Of a stretch of 25,742 nucleotides of DNA, positions 1-18,909 are shown in pieces. Made by a program: the position numbers and the translations under genes. Source of the stretch: a virus; the IMG/VR virus record IMGVR_UViG_3300021960_000454, positions 1 to 25,742 of that record; one strand, given 5' to 3'. Position 1 is the stretch's first letter. Every line of letters begins with the position of its first letter. The notes beneath the pieces were generated by a model. It was not told the DNA's origin and made no database searches. It saw only the letters and a list, made by a program, of their open reading frames with translations.

Positions 1-3000
1 AGGTATTTCTAATCGTATCACCCTCAAGAGCATCTGCATAGATGGTTCTTAAAGCGTCTTTTGCACGTCTTGCTTCACCAATATTAGTGAAGAAAGCATC
101 GTGAATTGTAGCAGTTTCAACGTTGTTTTTCCGGCCCCAAAGGTGGAACCTTCTTACAATAACAGCGTCATTGCTATGGTTTCCGTTAACACCTAGACCA
201 ATTCTTGCATCATTCAAAGAGCCTTTACCTAAAAGCTTTCCATCTTCTGCACTTGATTCATAGATATTAGCGATCCGCCTGTTAGTAACAGGATCACGAA
301 ATTCAATTCGTTCCTGTATTTTAGGGCGGTATCTTTGAGTCATAATTTTACCATCAAATGTTACCCAAGGTATGTCTACCTTTTTAGTTTCATTGACGTA
401 AACCCTTGCAACGTCTTTCCAGTAATTAATAAAATTATCGGTTACTGGCGCTCGTTCTGCAAGGTTCTTAGACATAATTCTAGAGACTTCTGAAAACTCC
501 TTGGGACCAATAATCCCTCGTCTTGCATTAGTCAATTTTTCTACAAATACACCAACATCAGGGTGTATGTCTTGAGCCTGTTTAAGTAGTGTTCTACCAA
601 CAGGTTCGTTATTATTTATAAGTTCTACAAGCTCTCGTCTAAAAGAAGATAACTCATCTACAGTGGTTGTAGCACCTAATCTCTCAGCAACTTTAATCTT
701 ACCATCAACAATTCTGAGATTTTCACCTAAATTGTTTTTAGTAACGGTAATAAATCCTTTGTCATCTAACACCTTAGATAACTTACTAGCAACATTAGCT
801 GTTTTAGTAGCATCACCAGCACCATAAAATGATACCATGTTTTGAGACTTAGCTGCCTTGGCAAGATCTTCCCAAGTGAGACCAGCATCTCTTAATGCAG
901 GGATTTTGATAAATTCGGGATCATTTACTGTATCCATTGCAACAAGGTCATAAAGCCTGTTTTTCTGAGTTGTAGCAAGAACATTAGACGCTTGTGATAC
1001 GGCTCTGTCTCCAGTAGAAAGCCCAATGATCTGCGCACCACTGGATGATGCATCGTTTTCAATCATTAACTTTGTTTTAAAACTTGTTAATGGTTTTCCA
1101 CTATTAAGATGCCTTTCTATTCTAGTGTATTCTAGAGCCATCCGAGCAAGTTTTGGAACTTCTGGACCTTCTAAGCCCCTGATTAAAGGATGTTCAAGGA
1201 ACTCTCGCATACGTCTATCACGCTGTGTGCTAGACATCATAATATCACCCAGCTCTACAAGCTTTTCTCTATTACGATTAAAAATAGCCCTTCGACCGTT
1301 TTGTGTAAGCGCCTCTGTGCCGGGACCAATCATCGAACCTATTTGGATTTTTAACTCATCCAAAGCACCGTCAGACATATTAATTGCTTTTCCTGAATTA
1401 AGAAAAGGTCTAACCAGCTCACCACCTGTAGGTGTTAAGTAACCTCTATGATAAACACGACCACGAGAGTCTATAAATGCCTGTGTTTTGAAGTTCTTAC
1501 CACGTTGTGCATGGTATTTAGCCGTAGCCATTAGACCGTAGCCTTGCTCTCCACGGTTCAAAATTTCATGACGAAACTCATTAATACTGTCATAGTACTT
1601 AGAGTTTCCCCTTGGATCTCTAAATCTAACAATATCATCCATGAACCCAAAGAACTCGTTATCAACTCCATACTCAACATCCATAACATGATTTAACATT
1701 TGGGCCATTTCTCTGTCAATCTGTTTTGCGTCATAATCAGCAAATTTGTCACGAGAAATTAAAGGTATTCCAGTTTCATTACCTCTTGCATCTACAAAAG
1801 TTTTCTTACCAGCTTTTACATAAAGGCGGTCTCTAGCAGAGGTGGTACCTAGTCTACGAGCAATTGTTACTCTTCGTTCTGCTTCTTGTAGTCTAAGCAA
1901 TCCCTTGTCTATAACAGAAACTTCTCTAGAAATGGTATCACCCCACCCCCCGGAAGATCTGCCTGTATCAAGATCAAGTATACCTCTGCGGGTTTTACCT
2001 CTAAACTGAACTTTAATTAAGTTTTGTTTAACAAGCAAATCTAGTATTTTTGAACCCTCTGTGTGGTATTCTTTTAAAGTATGCTTAGTAAAAGGTATGA
2101 TATTTTCAAAATCTTTAGATAACATTTTTCCGATATTAATCGCTAAGCTATCATAGTCAGTAGACTGACCAGAGGCTACTAGCTTAACTGCCTTTGTTAA
2201 GACATTAAGTGCAGTATCATCCATTATTTTAGATGTAGGCTTTTGTTTAAGATTTAAAAATTCTAAATCAAGAATACGCCTAATGTCTTCACGACCCTTG
2301 GAAACAATATTAGTAATCCAATTATCAGAAGGCTCTCTGTCAAATTTATTTTTAAAGTTATCATAAGCCTTTTTGAATGTGATTTGTTCTTTAAAATTAT
2401 TTATTAATTTTTCTCTATTAGGGTATTTCTTAAAGTAATTTCTGAAGTAAACCCTTGATGGCGCTCTCCCAGAAAAATATATTTTCTTCGCAAGAGCCTT
2501 GCCTTCTTTACTTCGCCAATTATCAATATACCTCTGATCCTTGAGTTGATTATCAATTAGATTATCTAACTGGTAATACTTTCCCATTATTTGAACTTGA
2601 GGAATATCTTTTGAAAGATAACTAACAAACATTTTAGATTTTTCACGAGATCTTGTATCTAATAAACGAGAGACGTTTTGAACGGCAAACCTGTTTTCTG
2701 CCCTTAAGACAGCAGCAAGATCATTCCAAGGTTCTTTGTTTTTAGCGTATCGCTCTAATACTACTCTTAGGTTTTCTATAACTACTGTTTGTTGATTTAC
2801 AGAAATTTTATCATCTAGGCCAGCAGCTATAGACTCAATAAAGTCTTTTTCATCGTTTGAAAGTAATTTTGATCCTCTCATGAAATCTATACGTTCTTGA
2901 TATAGATTAAAGTCTGGATCATAAATATTATTATTTTTTATTTCTCCGGTTAGAGGATCAGCACTAAAATTTCTTTCATCAAATTCGTTACCGACTCTGC

Positions 3001-4201
3001 GCCTAGAAGCAGTTTTCCCAACTAAGGTTGTACCTTTATAATCCGTTAAAGACATTGTTTTAGAAAAATCATCTGAGTCAAGAATAAACATTTGACGAAC
3101 AGAATTCTTATTATCAACACTTTTTATTAAAGAGCTAGGACGAGACGAAGATATGTTAACATCAATTTCTCTAATCTTTTGCTTAGGGGCAAAAACAGAT
3201 GTAGCATTTGCAGCCCTGTTTCTTAAAGCTTGTATAGAAAGCGCTTTACCTATTGGGGTTATAAACTGTTCATATTTCAGCTTACCCTCTCTAAATAAAT
3301 TTGCCTTCTCCATAGTACCAAGTAATTTAGTCTGGATATCAAAAGGTTGTCTTTTTAACCATGCACCAAAGCTTTCTGTCTTAGGTATAACTCCTGTTAA
3401 AGACTCTGGATTCTTCTTTTTTAAATTTGTTTTATTAAGGCGACTAGTGCTTTGCTCTATTAGTTCATCTTTTGATCTAATTATAGGCACTAGACTACTA
3501 CGACAATTCCAATGCAATGGTGGTTTAAAACGACTATCGTTAACATCATAAATCTTACCATTATGATAGGAGCAAATAGGACTAGTACGACTATCCAAGA
3601 TAGCAGTAAAAACAAAACCTTTTATTACATGTGAGTTAGAATCTGCCACCCTATTTAGCGCAGCAGTTTGAGTACTTGTAATAGAGGTTCTGGTTAAAGA
3701 CCTAGCCTGAGCTTCTGTTAACTTTGTTGTCTTCATAACATCTCTAATAATGTCATTTTGACTAGCTCCTGAAGCCAATCCGGATTTAACTTTTGTTTGT
3801 ATACGAACTAATTCACCTGCAGATATATTCTTAATATTACCAACTATATCTTTTTTCCCTTTAATATTAGGTCCAGTAATTTCAGCTAATAACTCTTTAG
3901 TTTTTGGCCTACTTACCTTGTAAAAGGATTTTAGTTCTTTATTAAGATTATCTGAATGAAAGTCAAGCTGGGAAGTAGAAAATTCTAACATGCTTGTTTT
4001 CTGGTGACTTAAGAGTTCTTTCCCAAAGCGCTTTACTTCTGGGGTGACATCACCTTTTATATTATCTTTTAAAACACCCATTAAACGTTTTCTATGCCTT
4101 TGCATAATCCGCTTATTTTGTAATTGGACGCCTTCTTCATAAAGACGAACATCAGTTAAATGGTCTATGATCCTATCATATATTTTAGTATTGATATCCA
4201 T
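1..4201 (-). CDS. MuF minor head protein fused to a T7-type single-subunit RNA polymerase (partial, continues past the left edge)
   Basis: I translated this frame by hand from the ATG at 4201 to base 1: 1400 codons with no stop. Residues ~150-300 match the MuF/phage head morphogenesis family: D203-SRTSPIC-210, then PPLHWNCRS at 227-235, and the family's W...Q...LLGT...LF..GKL stretch from W281. MuF proteins sit at the portal inside the head. Residues ~900-1400 carry all the T7-type RNA polymerase motifs: DSRGRVY at 911-917 (T7 DWRGRVY), motif A D1050-ASSSGAQ (T7 DGSCSGIQ), motif B K1118 with Y1126-G1127 (the same 8-residue spacing as T7 K631/Y639) and motif C IHDAF with H1367-D1368. The segment before motif C also resembles T7 (N..HS.D...R). 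I infer a virion RNA polymerase carried by the MuF domain. Residues ~340-900 are Lys/Asn-rich and unassigned; they may include the polymerase N-domain. The start has an AAGGGG ribosome-binding site, 26 bases after the portal stop. The C-terminus is outside the window. Confidence 0.93.
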   Translation of the reverse strand, partial: MDINTKIYDRIIDHLTDVRLYEEGVQLQNKRIMQRHRKRLMGVLKDNIKGDVTPEVKRFGKELLSHQKTSMLEFSTSQLDFHSDNLNKELKSFYKVSRPKTKELLAEITGPNIKGKKDIVGNIKNISAGELVRIQTKVKSGLASGASQNDIIRDVMKTTKLTEAQARSLTRTSITSTQTAALNRVADSNSHVIKGFVFTAILDSRTSPICSYHNGKIYDVNDSRFKPPLHWNCRSSLVPIIRSKDELIEQSTSRLNKTNLKKKNPESLTGVIPKTESFGAWLKRQPFDIQTKLLGTMEKANLFREGKLKYEQFITPIGKALSIQALRNRAANATSVFAPKQKIREIDVNISSSRPSSLIKSVDNKNSVRQMFILDSDDFSKTMSLTDYKGTTLVGKTASRRRVGNEFDERNFSADPLTGEIKNNNIYDPDFNLYQERIDFMRGSKLLSNDEKDFIESIAAGLDDKISVNQQTVVIENLRVVLERYAKNKEPWNDLAAVLRAENRFAVQNVSRLLDTRSREKSKMFVSYLSKDIPQVQIMGKYYQLDNLIDNQLKDQRYIDNWRSKEGKALAKKIYFSGRAPSRVYFRNYFKKYPNREKLINNFKEQITFKKAYDNFKNKFDREPSDNWITNIVSKGREDIRRILDLEFLNLKQKPTSKIMDDTALNVLTKAVKLVASGQSTDYDSLAINIGKMLSKDFENIIPFTKHTLKEYHTEGSKILDLLVKQNLIKVQFRGKTRRGILDLDTGRSSGGWGDTISREVSVIDKGLLRLQEAERRVTIARRLGTTSARDRLYVKAGKKTFVDARGNETGIPLISRDKFADYDAKQIDREMAQMLNHVMDVEYGVDNEFFGFMDDIVRFRDPRGNSKYYDSINEFRHEILNRGEQGYGLMATAKYHAQRGKNFKTQAFIDSRGRVYHRGYLTPTGGELVRPFLNSGKAINMSDGALDELKIQIGSMIGPGTEALTQNGRRAIFNRNREKLVELGDIMMSSTQRDRRMREFLEHPLIRGLEGPEVPKLARMALEYTRIERHLNSGKPLTSFKTKLMIENDASSSGAQIIGLSTGDRAVSQASNVLATTQKNRLYDLVAMDTVNDPEFIKIPALRDAGLTWEDLAKAAKSQNMVSFYGAGDATKTANVASKLSKVLDDKGFITVTKNNLGENLRIVDGKIKVAERLGATTTVDELSSFRRELVELINNNEPVGRTLLKQAQDIHPDVGVFVEKLTNARRGIIGPKEFSEVSRIMSKNLAERAPVTDNFINYWKDVARVYVNETKKVDIPWVTFDGKIMTQRYRPKIQERIEFRDPVTNRRIANIYESSAEDGKLLGKGSLNDARIGLGVNGNHSNDAVIVRRFHLWGRKNNVETATIHDAFFTNIGEARRAKDALRTIYADALEGDTIRNT

Positions 4202-6198: not shown

Positions 6199-6222
6199 GG
6201 GAGGGAATCTCCACCCCCTCCC
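6199..6222. repeat. GC-rich hairpin between the two promoter-like elements
   Basis: GGGAGGG (6199-6205) and CCCTCCC (6216-6222) form a perfect 7-bp stem with a 10-base loop. Neither side carries the T-run of a classical intrinsic terminator. It could terminate or attenuate read-through from the lysis genes, act with the neighbouring elements, or mark a processing site. Confidence 0.55.
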
Positions 6223-6225
6223 GTA

Positions 6226-6262
6226 AGAGACTGTCAGAAAACTTGAGAGTTTGTCTGTCTCT
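6226..6262. repeat. Imperfect stem-loop next to element copy 2
   Basis: AGAGAC (6226-6231) pairs with GTCTCT (6257-6262). Inside it AAACT (6239-6243) pairs with AGTTT (6248-6252) around a TGAG loop, with an internal loop between the two stems. On the coding strand this structure starts directly after element copy 2, so it would form at the 5' end of a transcript begun there. Confidence 0.45.
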
Positions 6263-6283
6263 TATTCTTAAACGTCAGGTATT
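6262..6283 (-). promoter_or_regulatory. Conserved intergenic element, copy 2 (candidate phage promoter)
   Basis: This is an exact 22-base repeat of 6172-6193. It begins 10 bases after the holin stop codon and reads toward the DUF6321-like, portal and MuF-RNA polymerase genes. Two tandem copies ahead of one operon suggest paired promoters or paired binding sites for the same factor. Because all genes run leftward, the coding-strand orientation is the meaningful one. Confidence 0.6.
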
Positions 6284-11550: not shown

Positions 11551-12041
11551 CACAAAGCCTCAATAATATCAATAGTACCAGGACTAGCCAAAATACCATC
11601 ATTAAAAGTAATGCCTCTTAAGTTAGTAACTTCTCTATAATAACGTATTGTTGCGTTAGATACTGTTGAGTATGTCAAACCGCTAGGGGGTGTTGGATAA
11701 AGATTAGAATCTACCACAGAGGCGGCATCAGCTTTTATCATATAGACTTTATTATTGCTACCTGTAACAAAGGCACCTTTTGGGTAGTTAACTGAACCAA
11801 GGCGGCTACCCACATCAGTTAACTGAGGCATGGTCATAGTTTTGACAGTATCAAATCCGGTTATGCTTATTAAGGCGTCTGCAGGAGACGTTGTTAGAAT
11901 ATCAAAAGATAACTCCCAACGCTGAGCGTTTTGAGAAGATCTTTGTTTTCTGAGAGAGACTGTATCAGAGTCAAACATAGGTTCGTTTGAAGAGATAGTT
12001 AGTGGGGCAAGAATTTCATAGCCCTCGTAGTAATATTTCAT
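11550..12041 (-). CDS. Distal tail protein, unassigned family
   Basis: This 163-residue protein is rich in Thr, Ser and hydrophobic beta-type segments (WELSFDILTTSPADALISITGF, TNLRGITFNDGILASPGTIDIIEAL). It has no transmembrane segment and no visible catalytic motif. It lies between the peptidase-like tail gene and the DUF2163-like gene, overlapping the former by four bases (ATGA) and the latter by one. In lambda-like and GTA-like tails this position holds small structural proteins of the distal tail, so I infer a virion role. I do not recognise a named family with certainty. Confidence 0.6.
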   Translation of the reverse strand: MKYYYEGYEILAPLTISSNEPMFDSDTVSLRKQRSSQNAQRWELSFDILTTSPADALISITGFDTVKTMTMPQLTDVGSRLGSVNYPKGAFVTGSNNKVYMIKADAASVVDSNLYPTPPSGLTYSTVSNATIRYYREVTNLRGITFNDGILASPGTIDIIEAL

Positions 12042-12490
12042 GATTCTTTCCTCAATGGTCTTGCGATAAGGTGCATTCGATTTTCTTTAAACTGTAATCG
12101 AGCGCCCTGTTTTACGCCTGAATTGTTTTCATCAGTTGTGACCCAGTGACCATTTCCTGCTATTACCGCAGAACCATCTGTATAAGCGATATCACCATAT
12201 CTAGGTCTTAAGTTGTTTCTGATCTCATAACCAGAGTATCTTGCAAAAGTTTTTAAATCTAGTCTATTCTTTCTTAGCTGTATTAAAAACTCTCTTGCAT
12301 TATTATATTTTAATTTTTTAAAAATTTCATCCGCTTTTGATTTGTTATTTCTTAATGCCTTGTCATATTCAATAAGAAAACAAAAACAGTCGCTATAGCC
12401 TCTTATAAAACCTTTTTCAACTGTTCTCTGATTAATAATTTCTGTAGCCTTAAGTAAGGCTAGTTTCATTTCTTCTACTTCATAATACAT
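12038..12490 (-). CDS. NlpC/P60-like (DUF6950-like) tail protein
   Basis: This 150-residue protein carries GYSDCFCFLIEYD near residue 30, with an Asp-Cys pair like the catalytic Cys of NlpC/P60-type tail peptidases. Later it has RPRYGDIAYTDG near residue 98, the family's R.GD turn, then GNGHWVTT with a candidate catalytic His. This arrangement is seen in DUF6950 and gp14-like proteins that open peptidoglycan locally during DNA entry. A helical Lys-rich insert lies between the Cys and His parts. The ATG at 12490 has GAGGG upstream. It is the first gene of the distal-tail operon, behind the promoter-like hairpin. Activity is not certain. Confidence 0.6.
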   Translation of the reverse strand: MYYEVEEMKLALLKATEIINQRTVEKGFIRGYSDCFCFLIEYDKALRNNKSKADEIFKKLKYNNAREFLIQLRKNRLDLKTFARYSGYEIRNNLRPRYGDIAYTDGSAVIAGNGHWVTTDENNSGVKQGARLQFKENRMHLIARPLRKES

Positions 12491-12509
12491 AACTATACCC
12501 TCAATAATA

Positions 12510-12552
12510 CTAGGGGGTGGCCCTTCTTTAACGTCAGGTATCCACCCCCTAG
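12510..12552. repeat. Perfect 11-bp inverted repeat enclosing the conserved element
   Basis: CTAGGGGGTGG (12510-12520) and CCACCCCCTAG (12542-12552) are exact reverse complements separated by 21 bases. The loop holds the third copy of the conserved element. The stem is GC-rich and stable on either strand. It lies between the PhoH stop (12559) and the start of the distal-tail operon (12490). It has no T-run, so a simple intrinsic terminator is less likely than a hairpin-presented site. Confidence 0.75.
12524..12541 (-). promoter_or_regulatory. Conserved intergenic element, copy 3 (candidate phage promoter)
   Basis: TTCTTTAACGTCAGGTAT on the plus strand differs from the copies at 6172 and 6262 by one base in 18. 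On the coding strand it reads ATACCTGACGTTAAAGAA, 34 bases ahead of the ATG at 12490. Sharing an element between two separate operon heads and nowhere else in the window supports a promoter or regulatory function. Confidence 0.6.
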
Positions 12553-12558
12553 AAAATA

Positions 12559-13242
12559 TTATAACTTTTCTTTTATAAACATTCGAACTAGGTCCGCAAC
12601 GATATCGCTTCTTACAATATCATCTACTGAAAACTCAACTACAGGAAGCTGAATTCCACATTTCTTAATTAAACTGCAAAACTTTAACAAGTCTCTGCCA
12701 TCTTTAACGTCTGATTGTGCAGGATCTCCCATTAAGACTAACTTAGAATTTTCACCTAGCCGTGTGCTAATTGCTTTTAATTCATCTAGTGAAAGGTTTT
12801 GAGACTCGTCAACTAAGACGAGAGCGTCCTTGTAAGAACGCCCTCTAATAGTTTCAATAGGTTGAATCTCAATCTCGCCCTTGTTTATCATATACTTGTA
12901 CTTTTCTTTGCCAAAGGCCTGTTCAAAGACTTCCAACATAGGTAGTAACCAAGGGGTCATCTTCTCTTGAATAGTCCCCGGGAAGTGGCCTAGGCTCTTG
13001 CCTGTGGGTACATTTGCCCTAGTCAAGACAATCTTCTTGTATTTGCCCTGCATAAACAAAGAAGCGGCTGTTCCAGCACTACAATAAGTTTTACCCGTCC
13101 CTGCACAACCAATTGTAACAGTAATAGGGTAAACTTTAATAGATCGGATTAGCTTATCTTGCTTATCGTTTTTAGGTATTACATGAAAGCCTATACGGTG
13201 TATATTGCTTTTACTTGCATAACGAGATTTTCTTTTTGACAT
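12559..13242 (-). CDS. phoH: PhoH-like P-loop ATPase
   Basis: This 227-residue protein has a Walker A loop at residues 45-52 (GCAGTGKT), Walker B at 141-146 (LVLVDE) continuing SQN, and a GDPAQSD motif at 172-178. This is the standard PhoH core, related to superfamily 1 helicase ATPases. PhoH-like genes are widespread in marine phages. Their function is not settled: RNA metabolism and a phosphate-starvation link have both been proposed. It sits alone between the fibre genes and the distal-tail operon, with short gaps on both sides. Its ribosome-binding site and ATG lie inside an inverted repeat (13239-13257), which suggests translation is controlled by mRNA folding. Confidence 0.93.
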   Translation of the reverse strand: MSKRKSRYASKSNIHRIGFHVIPKNDKQDKLIRSIKVYPITVTIGCAGTGKTYCSAGTAASLFMQGKYKKIVLTRANVPTGKSLGHFPGTIQEKMTPWLLPMLEVFEQAFGKEKYKYMINKGEIEIQPIETIRGRSYKDALVLVDESQNLSLDELKAISTRLGENSKLVLMGDPAQSDVKDGRDLLKFCSLIKKCGIQLPVVEFSVDDIVRSDIVADLVRMFIKEKL

Positions 13243-16082: not shown

Positions 16083-16400
16083 TTAAGTAATAGTAGCTGT
16101 GGCATCAAGTGTGCCAGTAACTTCTAGATTACCGTTAGTATCGAGTTTTAGTTTGTTAGAGCCATTACCAAAATATAAATGACCATTAGACTCTGTTATA
16201 GACCAAGTACTAAGGGCTACATCGGAAGTATTAACCTTAGAGTCTACTTGAGTTTGTACATTAGAAGTAACACCGCTAAGACGATTAATCTCAGCAGCAG
16301 TTACTGTTACCCCTGTAATTTCATCAGGGTCTACTGCTCCATCTGAAAGAATACTTCCAGTAGAGATCAGGCTAGCAAAGTTTCTTGCGTTAGACGCCAT
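16083..16400 (-). CDS. Short fibre adaptor, paralogue of 18454-18909
   Basis: The 105-residue product shares its first ~50 residues with the protein at 18454-18909: (A/D)ITGVTV...AEINRLSGVTSNVQ, after a SLISTGSILSDGA start. The DNA of this shared part is ~90% identical over 98 bases. The rest has a FGNGSNKLKLDTNGNLEVTGTLDATATI phrase common in marine phage fibres. Ala/Thr-rich heptad-like spacing suggests a trimeric stalk. It is followed by the chaperone-like domain protein order seen at the other copy. The ATG at 16400 has AAAGGAG upstream. Function is inferred from fibre context. Confidence 0.7.
   Translation of the reverse strand: MASNARNFASLISTGSILSDGAVDPDEITGVTVTAAEINRLSGVTSNVQTQVDSKVNTSDVALSTWSITESNGHLYFGNGSNKLKLDTNGNLEVTGTLDATATIT
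16258..16355. repeat. 98-bp direct repeat, copy A
   Basis: This segment aligns without gaps to 18770-18867 with 10 differences in 98 bases by hand count. It encodes the shared adaptor block of the two fibre paralogues and could allow homologous recombination across the ~2.5 kb between them. Confidence 0.85.
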
Positions 16401-18454: not shown

Positions 18455-18909
18455 TATAAAGCTCCATATTTAAGTAAGGCTGCGGCTGAAACACCGTCAA
18501 TGCCAGTTAGGTTAGATGCGTTTAGTGCTGGTAGCTGTCCTGACCCATCGAGTTGAACGACTTGGTTAGCCCCTGTGCCAACATCGAGTGCTGACGCTGT
18601 GCCTAAACCAGCGATTGCTGTGCTTAGATCAGTAGCTGAAGCCTTTGCATCAAGCTGTGTTTGTACAGATGAGTTAACCCCTGCTACATTGTTTAACTCT
18701 CCTGTTGTAGCGGTAATGCCAAGATCACTTAAAGTAGAGACTGTGCCTTTAACATCTAGCTGGCCTTGGACATTAGAAGTAACGCCGCTGAGACGATTAA
18801 TCTCAGCAGAACTTACTGTTACGCCTGTAATTTCATTAGGCTCTATTGCCCCATCCGAAAGAATACTATCTGCTGATATTAAGTCAGCAAGATCTCTTGC
18901 TTTAGTCAT
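18454..18909 (-). CDS. Fibre adaptor, paralogue of 16083-16400
   Basis: The 151-residue product starts MTKARDLADLISADSILSDGA and shares the (E/D)ITGVTV...AEINRLSGVTSNVQ block with 16083-16400. It then repeats the same phrase in variant form (GITATTGELNNVAGVNSSVQTQLDAKA), so it holds an internal duplication of a ~30-residue coiled-coil-like stalk unit. The C-terminal part (QVVQLDGSGQLPALNASNLTGI) is a common marine phage fibre motif. GGAG lies upstream of the ATG at 18909. It is flanked by the chaperone-like gene on one side and the 417-residue appendage protein on the other. Trimeric fibre linker is the likely role. Confidence 0.7.
   Translation of the reverse strand: MTKARDLADLISADSILSDGAIEPNEITGVTVSSAEINRLSGVTSNVQGQLDVKGTVSTLSDLGITATTGELNNVAGVNSSVQTQLDAKASATDLSTAIAGLGTASALDVGTGANQVVQLDGSGQLPALNASNLTGIDGVSAAALLKYGAL
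18770..18867. repeat. 98-bp direct repeat, copy B
   Basis: Partner of 16258-16355, with 10 hand-counted differences over 98 aligned bases. Most differences are at third codon positions, consistent with a duplicated block kept under protein-level selection. Confidence 0.85.

Follow-up and report, generated by a model that had tools for sequence, protein, structure and literature searches.

Between phoH and the tail genes of an uncultured marine-type phage lies a GC-rich hairpin whose loop holds a sequence element that recurs elsewhere in the same DNA. The question raised by this locus is whether the hairpin acts as a promoter recognised through DNA structure, like the hairpin promoters of the N4 virion RNA polymerase, as a terminator joined to a promoter, or in some other way. 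In this work, we analyzed the whole stretch available (hereafter the window), a 25.7-kb virus fragment whose genes are read on the minus strand and whose proteins match phage tail, portal, head and PhoH families.

The phoH/orf150 gap and its hairpin

The gap between phoH and orf150 is 68 nt long and is mostly filled by the hairpin at 12510-12552 (Table 1). Its arms (12510-12520 and 12542-12552, CTAGGGGGTGG/CCACCCCCTAG) are 100% complementary over 11 bp and enclose 21 nt that read ATACCTGACGTTAAAGAAGGG on the coding strand. Only two perfect inverted repeats of at least 11 bp with a loop of at most 30 nt are present in the window, and 12510-12552 is its only perfect inverted repeat of at least 11 bp with at least 8 G/C; 60 dinucleotide shuffles produced a mean of 0.45 perfect repeats of any kind, none of them GC-rich. 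The hairpin is real, as the first-pass annotation described it, with the shared element in the 21-base loop of a perfect 11-bp stem. Its orientation has to be corrected, as all genes here lie on the minus strand: the element becomes ATACCTGACGTTAAAGAA, and 12552-12542 is the 5' arm. An AT-rich outer stem around the 11-bp stem is weakly supported (permutation 61 of 5000), and an Rfam search of the window and nine relatives gave no match. Elsewhere in the window, a 151-bp direct repeat, 80% identical between its copies (16243-16393 and 18755-18905), lies inside two adjacent small structural genes.

Table 1 Features of the window discussed in the text (all on the minus strand)
Feature	Position	Strand	Remarks
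MuF minor head protein fused to T7-like RNA polymerase domain	2..4201	-	last gene of the window; C-terminus lies off the window
Putative promoter copy P2	6175..6192	-	same gap as P1, before orf95 and the portal gene
Leader stem-loop B, GC-rich	6199..6222	-	sequence varies, stem kept; ends 6 nt before P2
Leader stem-loop A, GAGACAGA..TCTGACAGTCTC, with 4-nt bulge	6224..6264	-	between P1 and P2; predicted in nearly all of 21 relatives
Putative promoter copy P1, ATACCTGACGTTTAAGAA	6265..6282	-	gap before orf95 and the portal gene
orf150	12038..12490	-	weak PHROG 2134 match, and relatives; first gene downstream of the gap, followed by a run of tail genes
Shine-Dalgarno-like GAGGG	12498..12502	-	from sequence; just before the orf150 ATG, outside the hairpin
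3' arm of the sense stem, CCACCCCCTAG	12510..12520	-	in the leader of promoter-initiated transcripts; covariation
Putative T7-type promoter core, ATACCTGACGTTAAAGAA	12524..12541	-	in the hairpin loop; predicted +1 is G12526, by alignment with T7 TAATACGACTCACTATAG
5' arm of the sense stem, CTAGGGGGTGG	12542..12552	-	upstream of the promoter core; covariation
phoH	12559..13242	-	PHROG 170, E 6.6e-71; upstream of the gap

The other two copies of the element share the gap in front of the portal gene. In 21 relatives this gap shows the same order of features, namely P1, the stem-loop GAGACAG..CTGANAGTCTC (bulged by 4 nt in most of them), a variable GC-rich stem-loop and P2. GC-rich hairpins had been noted beside these two copies and are indeed present, at 6264-6224 and 6222-6199, but they lie between the promoters and not around them.

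The loop element and the polymerase that may read it

On the minus (coding) strand the loop element reads ATACCTGACGTTWAAGAA. Three copies of the 18-mer are present in the window, all on the minus strand and all in gaps (12541-12524, 6282-6265 and 6192-6175), and a reversed control pattern of the element has no occurrence there. Among IMG/VR relatives we collected 167 distinct sites with the strict consensus (A)ATA[C/G]CTGAC[G/C]TT[A/T]AAGAA, most of which look intergenic and just 5' of a gene: 124 of them are followed within 200 nt by a Shine-Dalgarno-like site and an ATG, and 54 fall inside a stop-free stretch of at least 100 codons, so that some of the 167 may be chance or intragenic copies. 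Nearly all copies in the long relatives are on one strand. Aligned with the T7 promoter TAATACGACTCACTATAG, the element has TAATAC at positions -17 to -12 and is AT-rich ahead of the +1 G. As the consensus is strict and linear, and its many copies per genome lie on the coding strand in front of genes, we read the loop element as a T7-type promoter found throughout these phages, with a start site predicted from the alignment. Many promoter copies are followed by a conserved leader, 'taactttgctaaggctctgccaaagtgatact...' (for example L088 3767, L096 7583, L104 1845, L120 320, L155 7739 and L175 3895), which resembles a structured RNA or a small non-coding transcript.

A diverged set of the element, ATAGGTKACGTTAAAGA and ATAGGGTGCGTTAAAGA, is carried by the Roseobacter phages DSS3_VP1 and DSS3_PM1, including copies before the portal gene and at the phoH stop; around the copy at the phoH stop of DSS3_VP1, which infects Ruegeria pomeroyi DSS-3, we saw no stem. 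In DSS3_VP1 (L004/L005) two promoter subclasses coexist in one genome, ATAGGGTGCGTTAAAGA and ATAGGTKACGTTAAAGA (sites 2242, 2333, 19202, 19237, 45926, 46393 and 46551 versus 6580, 7408, 19326 and 29396), and most promoters of both subclasses have a G-rich leader hairpin directly 3' of them.

A candidate reader is RNAP2, a T7-like RNA polymerase with strong PF00940 matches that is encoded in the same genome as the promoters in seven of ten long relatives and in DSS3_VP1 (these counts come from relatives, as the window ends short of the RNAP2 region). RNAP2 of DSS3_VP1 matches T7 RNA polymerase with an E value of 1.8e-58. In five relatives (G001, G002, G004, G005 and G007) the RNAP2 match is followed by a copy of the element that begins no more than ~300 bp from where the match ends, just as phi1.1A follows gene 1 in T7. 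In a comparison limited to seven genomes (six relatives and DSS3_VP1), the RNAP2 specificity loop has Q together with promoters in ..ACGTT and R or N together with ..ACCTT, and DSS3_VP1 has a different loop and the element ATAGGTKACGTT or ATAGGGTGCGTT. The genes 5' of RNAP2 in the relatives show sigma70-like TATAAT boxes and T-tract terminators instead of the element. We infer from this arrangement that RNAP2 reads the element, and the simplest cascade would run from the host RNA polymerase to RNAP2 and then to these promoters.

In most of the genomes carrying RNAP2, a second, weaker PF00940 match comes from another protein, the MuF-RNAP fusion, which is also the product of the last gene of the window. 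The window protein matches PF04233 (E 2.8e-13) and the RNA polymerase family phrog_414 (E 3.5e-21), with PF00940 just under the cut-off; it carries the motifs DSRGR (D..RGR), NDASSSG, K..NMVSFYG and HDAF, and it is 62% identical over the full length to the protein of DSS3_VP1/DSS3_PM1. A phmmer search against PDB gave no match, so that the assignment rests on the PHROG and Pfam matches and the motifs; the AlphaFold model of the C-terminal region had a mean pLDDT of 49. The combination of MuF with a complete-looking T7-like single-subunit RNA polymerase is conserved in dozens of IMG/VR phages and in DSS3_VP1/PM1 (L008-L087; L004:21242-25633). Iyer et al. 2017 (PMC5512222) found N4-type virion RNA polymerases only in N4-like phages, and the fusion is a candidate virion RNA polymerase outside that group. 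The presence of this gene made the N4 analogy a fair lead for the hairpin. A search for short-loop hairpins from the MuF-RNAP gene to RNAP2 found no candidate of the 12510 type, but hairpins with a TGT triloop. They lie in relatives (for example L015, L052 and L116) in the gap directly 3' of the MuF-RNAP gene, beyond the window end. Nearly all of 43 sequences have them, as up to three tandem hairpins of 5-7 bp with an invariant TGT triloop and stems that covary; the last hairpin adjoins the Shine-Dalgarno site of the next gene. They are similar in size to N4 promoters, but reading by eye turned up few wobbles, every one of them sense G-U, which suggests that they are probably RNA structures.

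Conservation of the enclosing stem

An enclosing stem of at least 8 bp is found at 20 of 21 phoH-gap sites, versus 11 of 58 portal-gap sites and 12 of 88 other sites. Measured against shuffled flanks, with shuffles that kept base composition only, the stem stands out at 20 phoH-gap sites, at 4 of the 58 portal-gap sites and at 2 of the remaining 88. One of these last two is in L128, which also has an enclosing stem and where phoH is unmatched because it is cut off or too distant. The sole phoH-gap exception, L100, has a different downstream gene. Enclosure by a hairpin is specific to the phoH/orf150 gap. As stems elsewhere are about as frequent as in shuffled flanks, the promoter itself does not need a hairpin.

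Compensatory changes in the arms among relatives had been proposed as a test of the hairpin, and they were found. MAFFT alignments of whole gaps misplaced the 3' arms, and for this count the arms were put in register by hand: across 16 distinct arm pairs, 92% of the cells were paired, compared with 81.5% after shuffling of the 3' letters and at most 65% in a slid register, and both sides had changed at 7 of the 11 stem pairs; one of the controls for this count ignores relatedness. The pairing score of the arms with their own partners was 491 in total, against a maximum of 438.5 in 20,000 permutations. Even in L109, whose PhoH is 97% identical, the arms carry two compensated double changes. Allowing sense G-U pairs raised the score by 77 points, and allowing A-C pairs (equivalent to antisense G-U) by 0.5. 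Since the wobbles are coding-strand G-U and almost never A-C, it is the sense RNA that is conserved; a DNA cruciform would show no such one-strand preference, and the same bias would also come from G.T pairs in single-stranded coding DNA. The covariation and the wobble bias, both read directly from the aligned arms, indicate that the hairpin is under selection, in sense RNA.

Relatives without the promoter in the phoH gap have a longer hairpin there (-33 to -50 kcal/mol), which suggests that this junction needs an RNA hairpin with or without a promoter. The sequence of these longer hairpins is very divergent (L223, L239, L257, L259, L261, L274, L277 and others), and Rfam gave no match for them.

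Alternative readings and comparison with known systems

Taken together, these results are probably best explained by a promoter for the T7-like RNAP2 that sits within the loop of a conserved RNA stem-loop, the latter being an mRNA processing or stability element at the junction between phoH and the tail genes. RNAP2 would initiate on the minus strand, near G12526, and transcribe orf150 and the tail genes. RNA initiated there would contain the 3' arm only and could form no stem, whereas read-through RNA from the upstream genes and phoH would contain both arms and fold into the 11-bp stem-loop; as a transcript started in the loop lacks the 5' arm, the stem is confined to read-through RNA. There, it would most likely act as a processing or 3'-end-stabilising element (RNase III-type), so that the hairpin would separate upstream from tail messages while the loop promoter restarts transcription. 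We infer the processing function from two lines, the parallel with T7 phi6.5 described below and the hairpins at promoter-less junctions, which favor a promoter nested in an element for mRNA processing or stability. The sense-RNA stem carries compensatory changes, and, as in the phi6.5 layout, the promoter core lies wholly within the loop; on the other hand, a stem of 11 bp is short for an RNase III substrate.

Several other readings were weighed. The first-pass annotation had considered a terminator-promoter composite between phoH and the tail operon, in which the sense stem would stop the polymerase coming from phoH and the loop promoter would restart transcription for the tail genes. The promoter and the position between phoH and the tail genes hold, and a strong GC-rich stem in sense RNA at a gene end, next to a new promoter, is what such a composite would look like; moreover, other junctions in these genomes have hairpins with T-richer tails directly 3' of promoters. 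The terminator half does not hold up: in 19 relatives the bases after the stem contain at most three T in a row, where the T-tract of an intrinsic terminator would be expected after the GC-rich stem, and this argues against intrinsic termination. Furthermore, the loop is 21-29 nt long and host-type terminators elsewhere in these phages do carry T-tracts (CGCCCTTCGGGGCG and a T-run). The terminator scan did not list the stem either, but its 8-nt loop limit excludes the stem anyway. Altogether, we consider the composite unlikely. A role of the covarying stem as an RNA site for a regulatory protein, for example in translational control of orf150 and unrelated to processing, seems improbable to us. 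The conserved stem is near the orf150 start and conserved stem-loops exist in other gaps of these phages too, but the Shine-Dalgarno-like site is outside the stem, the promoter alone accounts for the loop sequence, and promoter-initiated mRNAs, probably the majority, would be unable to form the stem.

Two further readings involve the structure in the control of the promoter itself. The stem might couple read-through to the embedded promoter, the folded nascent RNA or the displaced coding strand switching it on or off; we give this rather little credence, and if it were true, phages that package a MuF-fused RNA polymerase would also have a promoter controlled by structure. The N4-like reading, in which the MuF-RNAP fusion as virion polymerase or RNAP2 would recognise the hairpin extruded in DNA, is very improbable. 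The hairpin is conserved and the phage encodes a candidate virion RNA polymerase with intact catalytic motifs, but nothing ties that candidate to the 12510-12552 hairpin. In N4, the promoters of the virion RNA polymerase serve early genes, and their hairpin loop consists of 3 bases centred at -11 (PMC4496689). Here the loop has 21-29 nt, the location is late (structural-gene region), the early genes 5' of RNAP2 show sigma70-like boxes instead, and almost all other copies of the element are without an enclosing hairpin; none of the three marks of an N4 hairpin promoter (a 3-base loop at -11, a hairpin at the other promoters, early genes) was found. In addition, the wobbles fit the coding strand only, whereas N4 uses a template-strand hairpin. 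The proposed recognition through DNA structure is thus not supported: the loop is itself a putative linear T7-type promoter, and the hairpin is lacking at nearly all other sites. The likeness to N4 is that a promoter is associated with an inverted repeat, in a phage with a candidate virion RNA polymerase and a second RNA polymerase; the difference is that conservation here is in sense RNA and in N4 in template DNA.

Notwithstanding, the locus is of interest beyond this analogy. With it comes a set of promoters for relatives of Naomviridae, a widespread marine siphophage group for which we found no published transcription map in the open-access literature. With two single-subunit RNA polymerases per genome, one of them fused to a head protein, the question of a siphophage virion polymerase becomes directly testable.

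The closest parallels are found in T7. The element resembles T7-type promoters in being linear, ~18-23 bp long, starting with TAATAC and AT-rich before the +1 G, in having many coding-strand copies, and in that the gene of the cognate polymerase lies just before a copy. It differs in its core, CCTGACGTTWAAG here versus GACTCACTATAG, and in its occurrence in siphophage relatives of Naomviridae, which also encode the MuF-RNAP fusion. In the T7 genome, a 10-bp hairpin (AAGGTCCCTA/TAGGGGCCTT) holds phi6.5 in its loop; we take this hairpin to be the RNase III site R6.5, a name for which we found no support in the open-access literature. The arms of this hairpin resemble those of R1.1, a documented T7 RNase III site (position from PMC8708148). 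At both loci a GC-rich hairpin encloses the promoter core in its loop, with the 5' arm upstream of the promoter and the 3' arm in the leader, whereas the stem has 10 bp in T7 and 11 bp here and the arm sequences are unrelated. T7 is a podovirus and phi6.5 lies at the junction of genes 6.3/6.5; here the junction is that of phoH and the tail genes, and cleavage of the stem is proposed by analogy. A T7-like layout, with a promoter nested in a covarying RNA stem-loop, would thus occur outside podoviruses as well.
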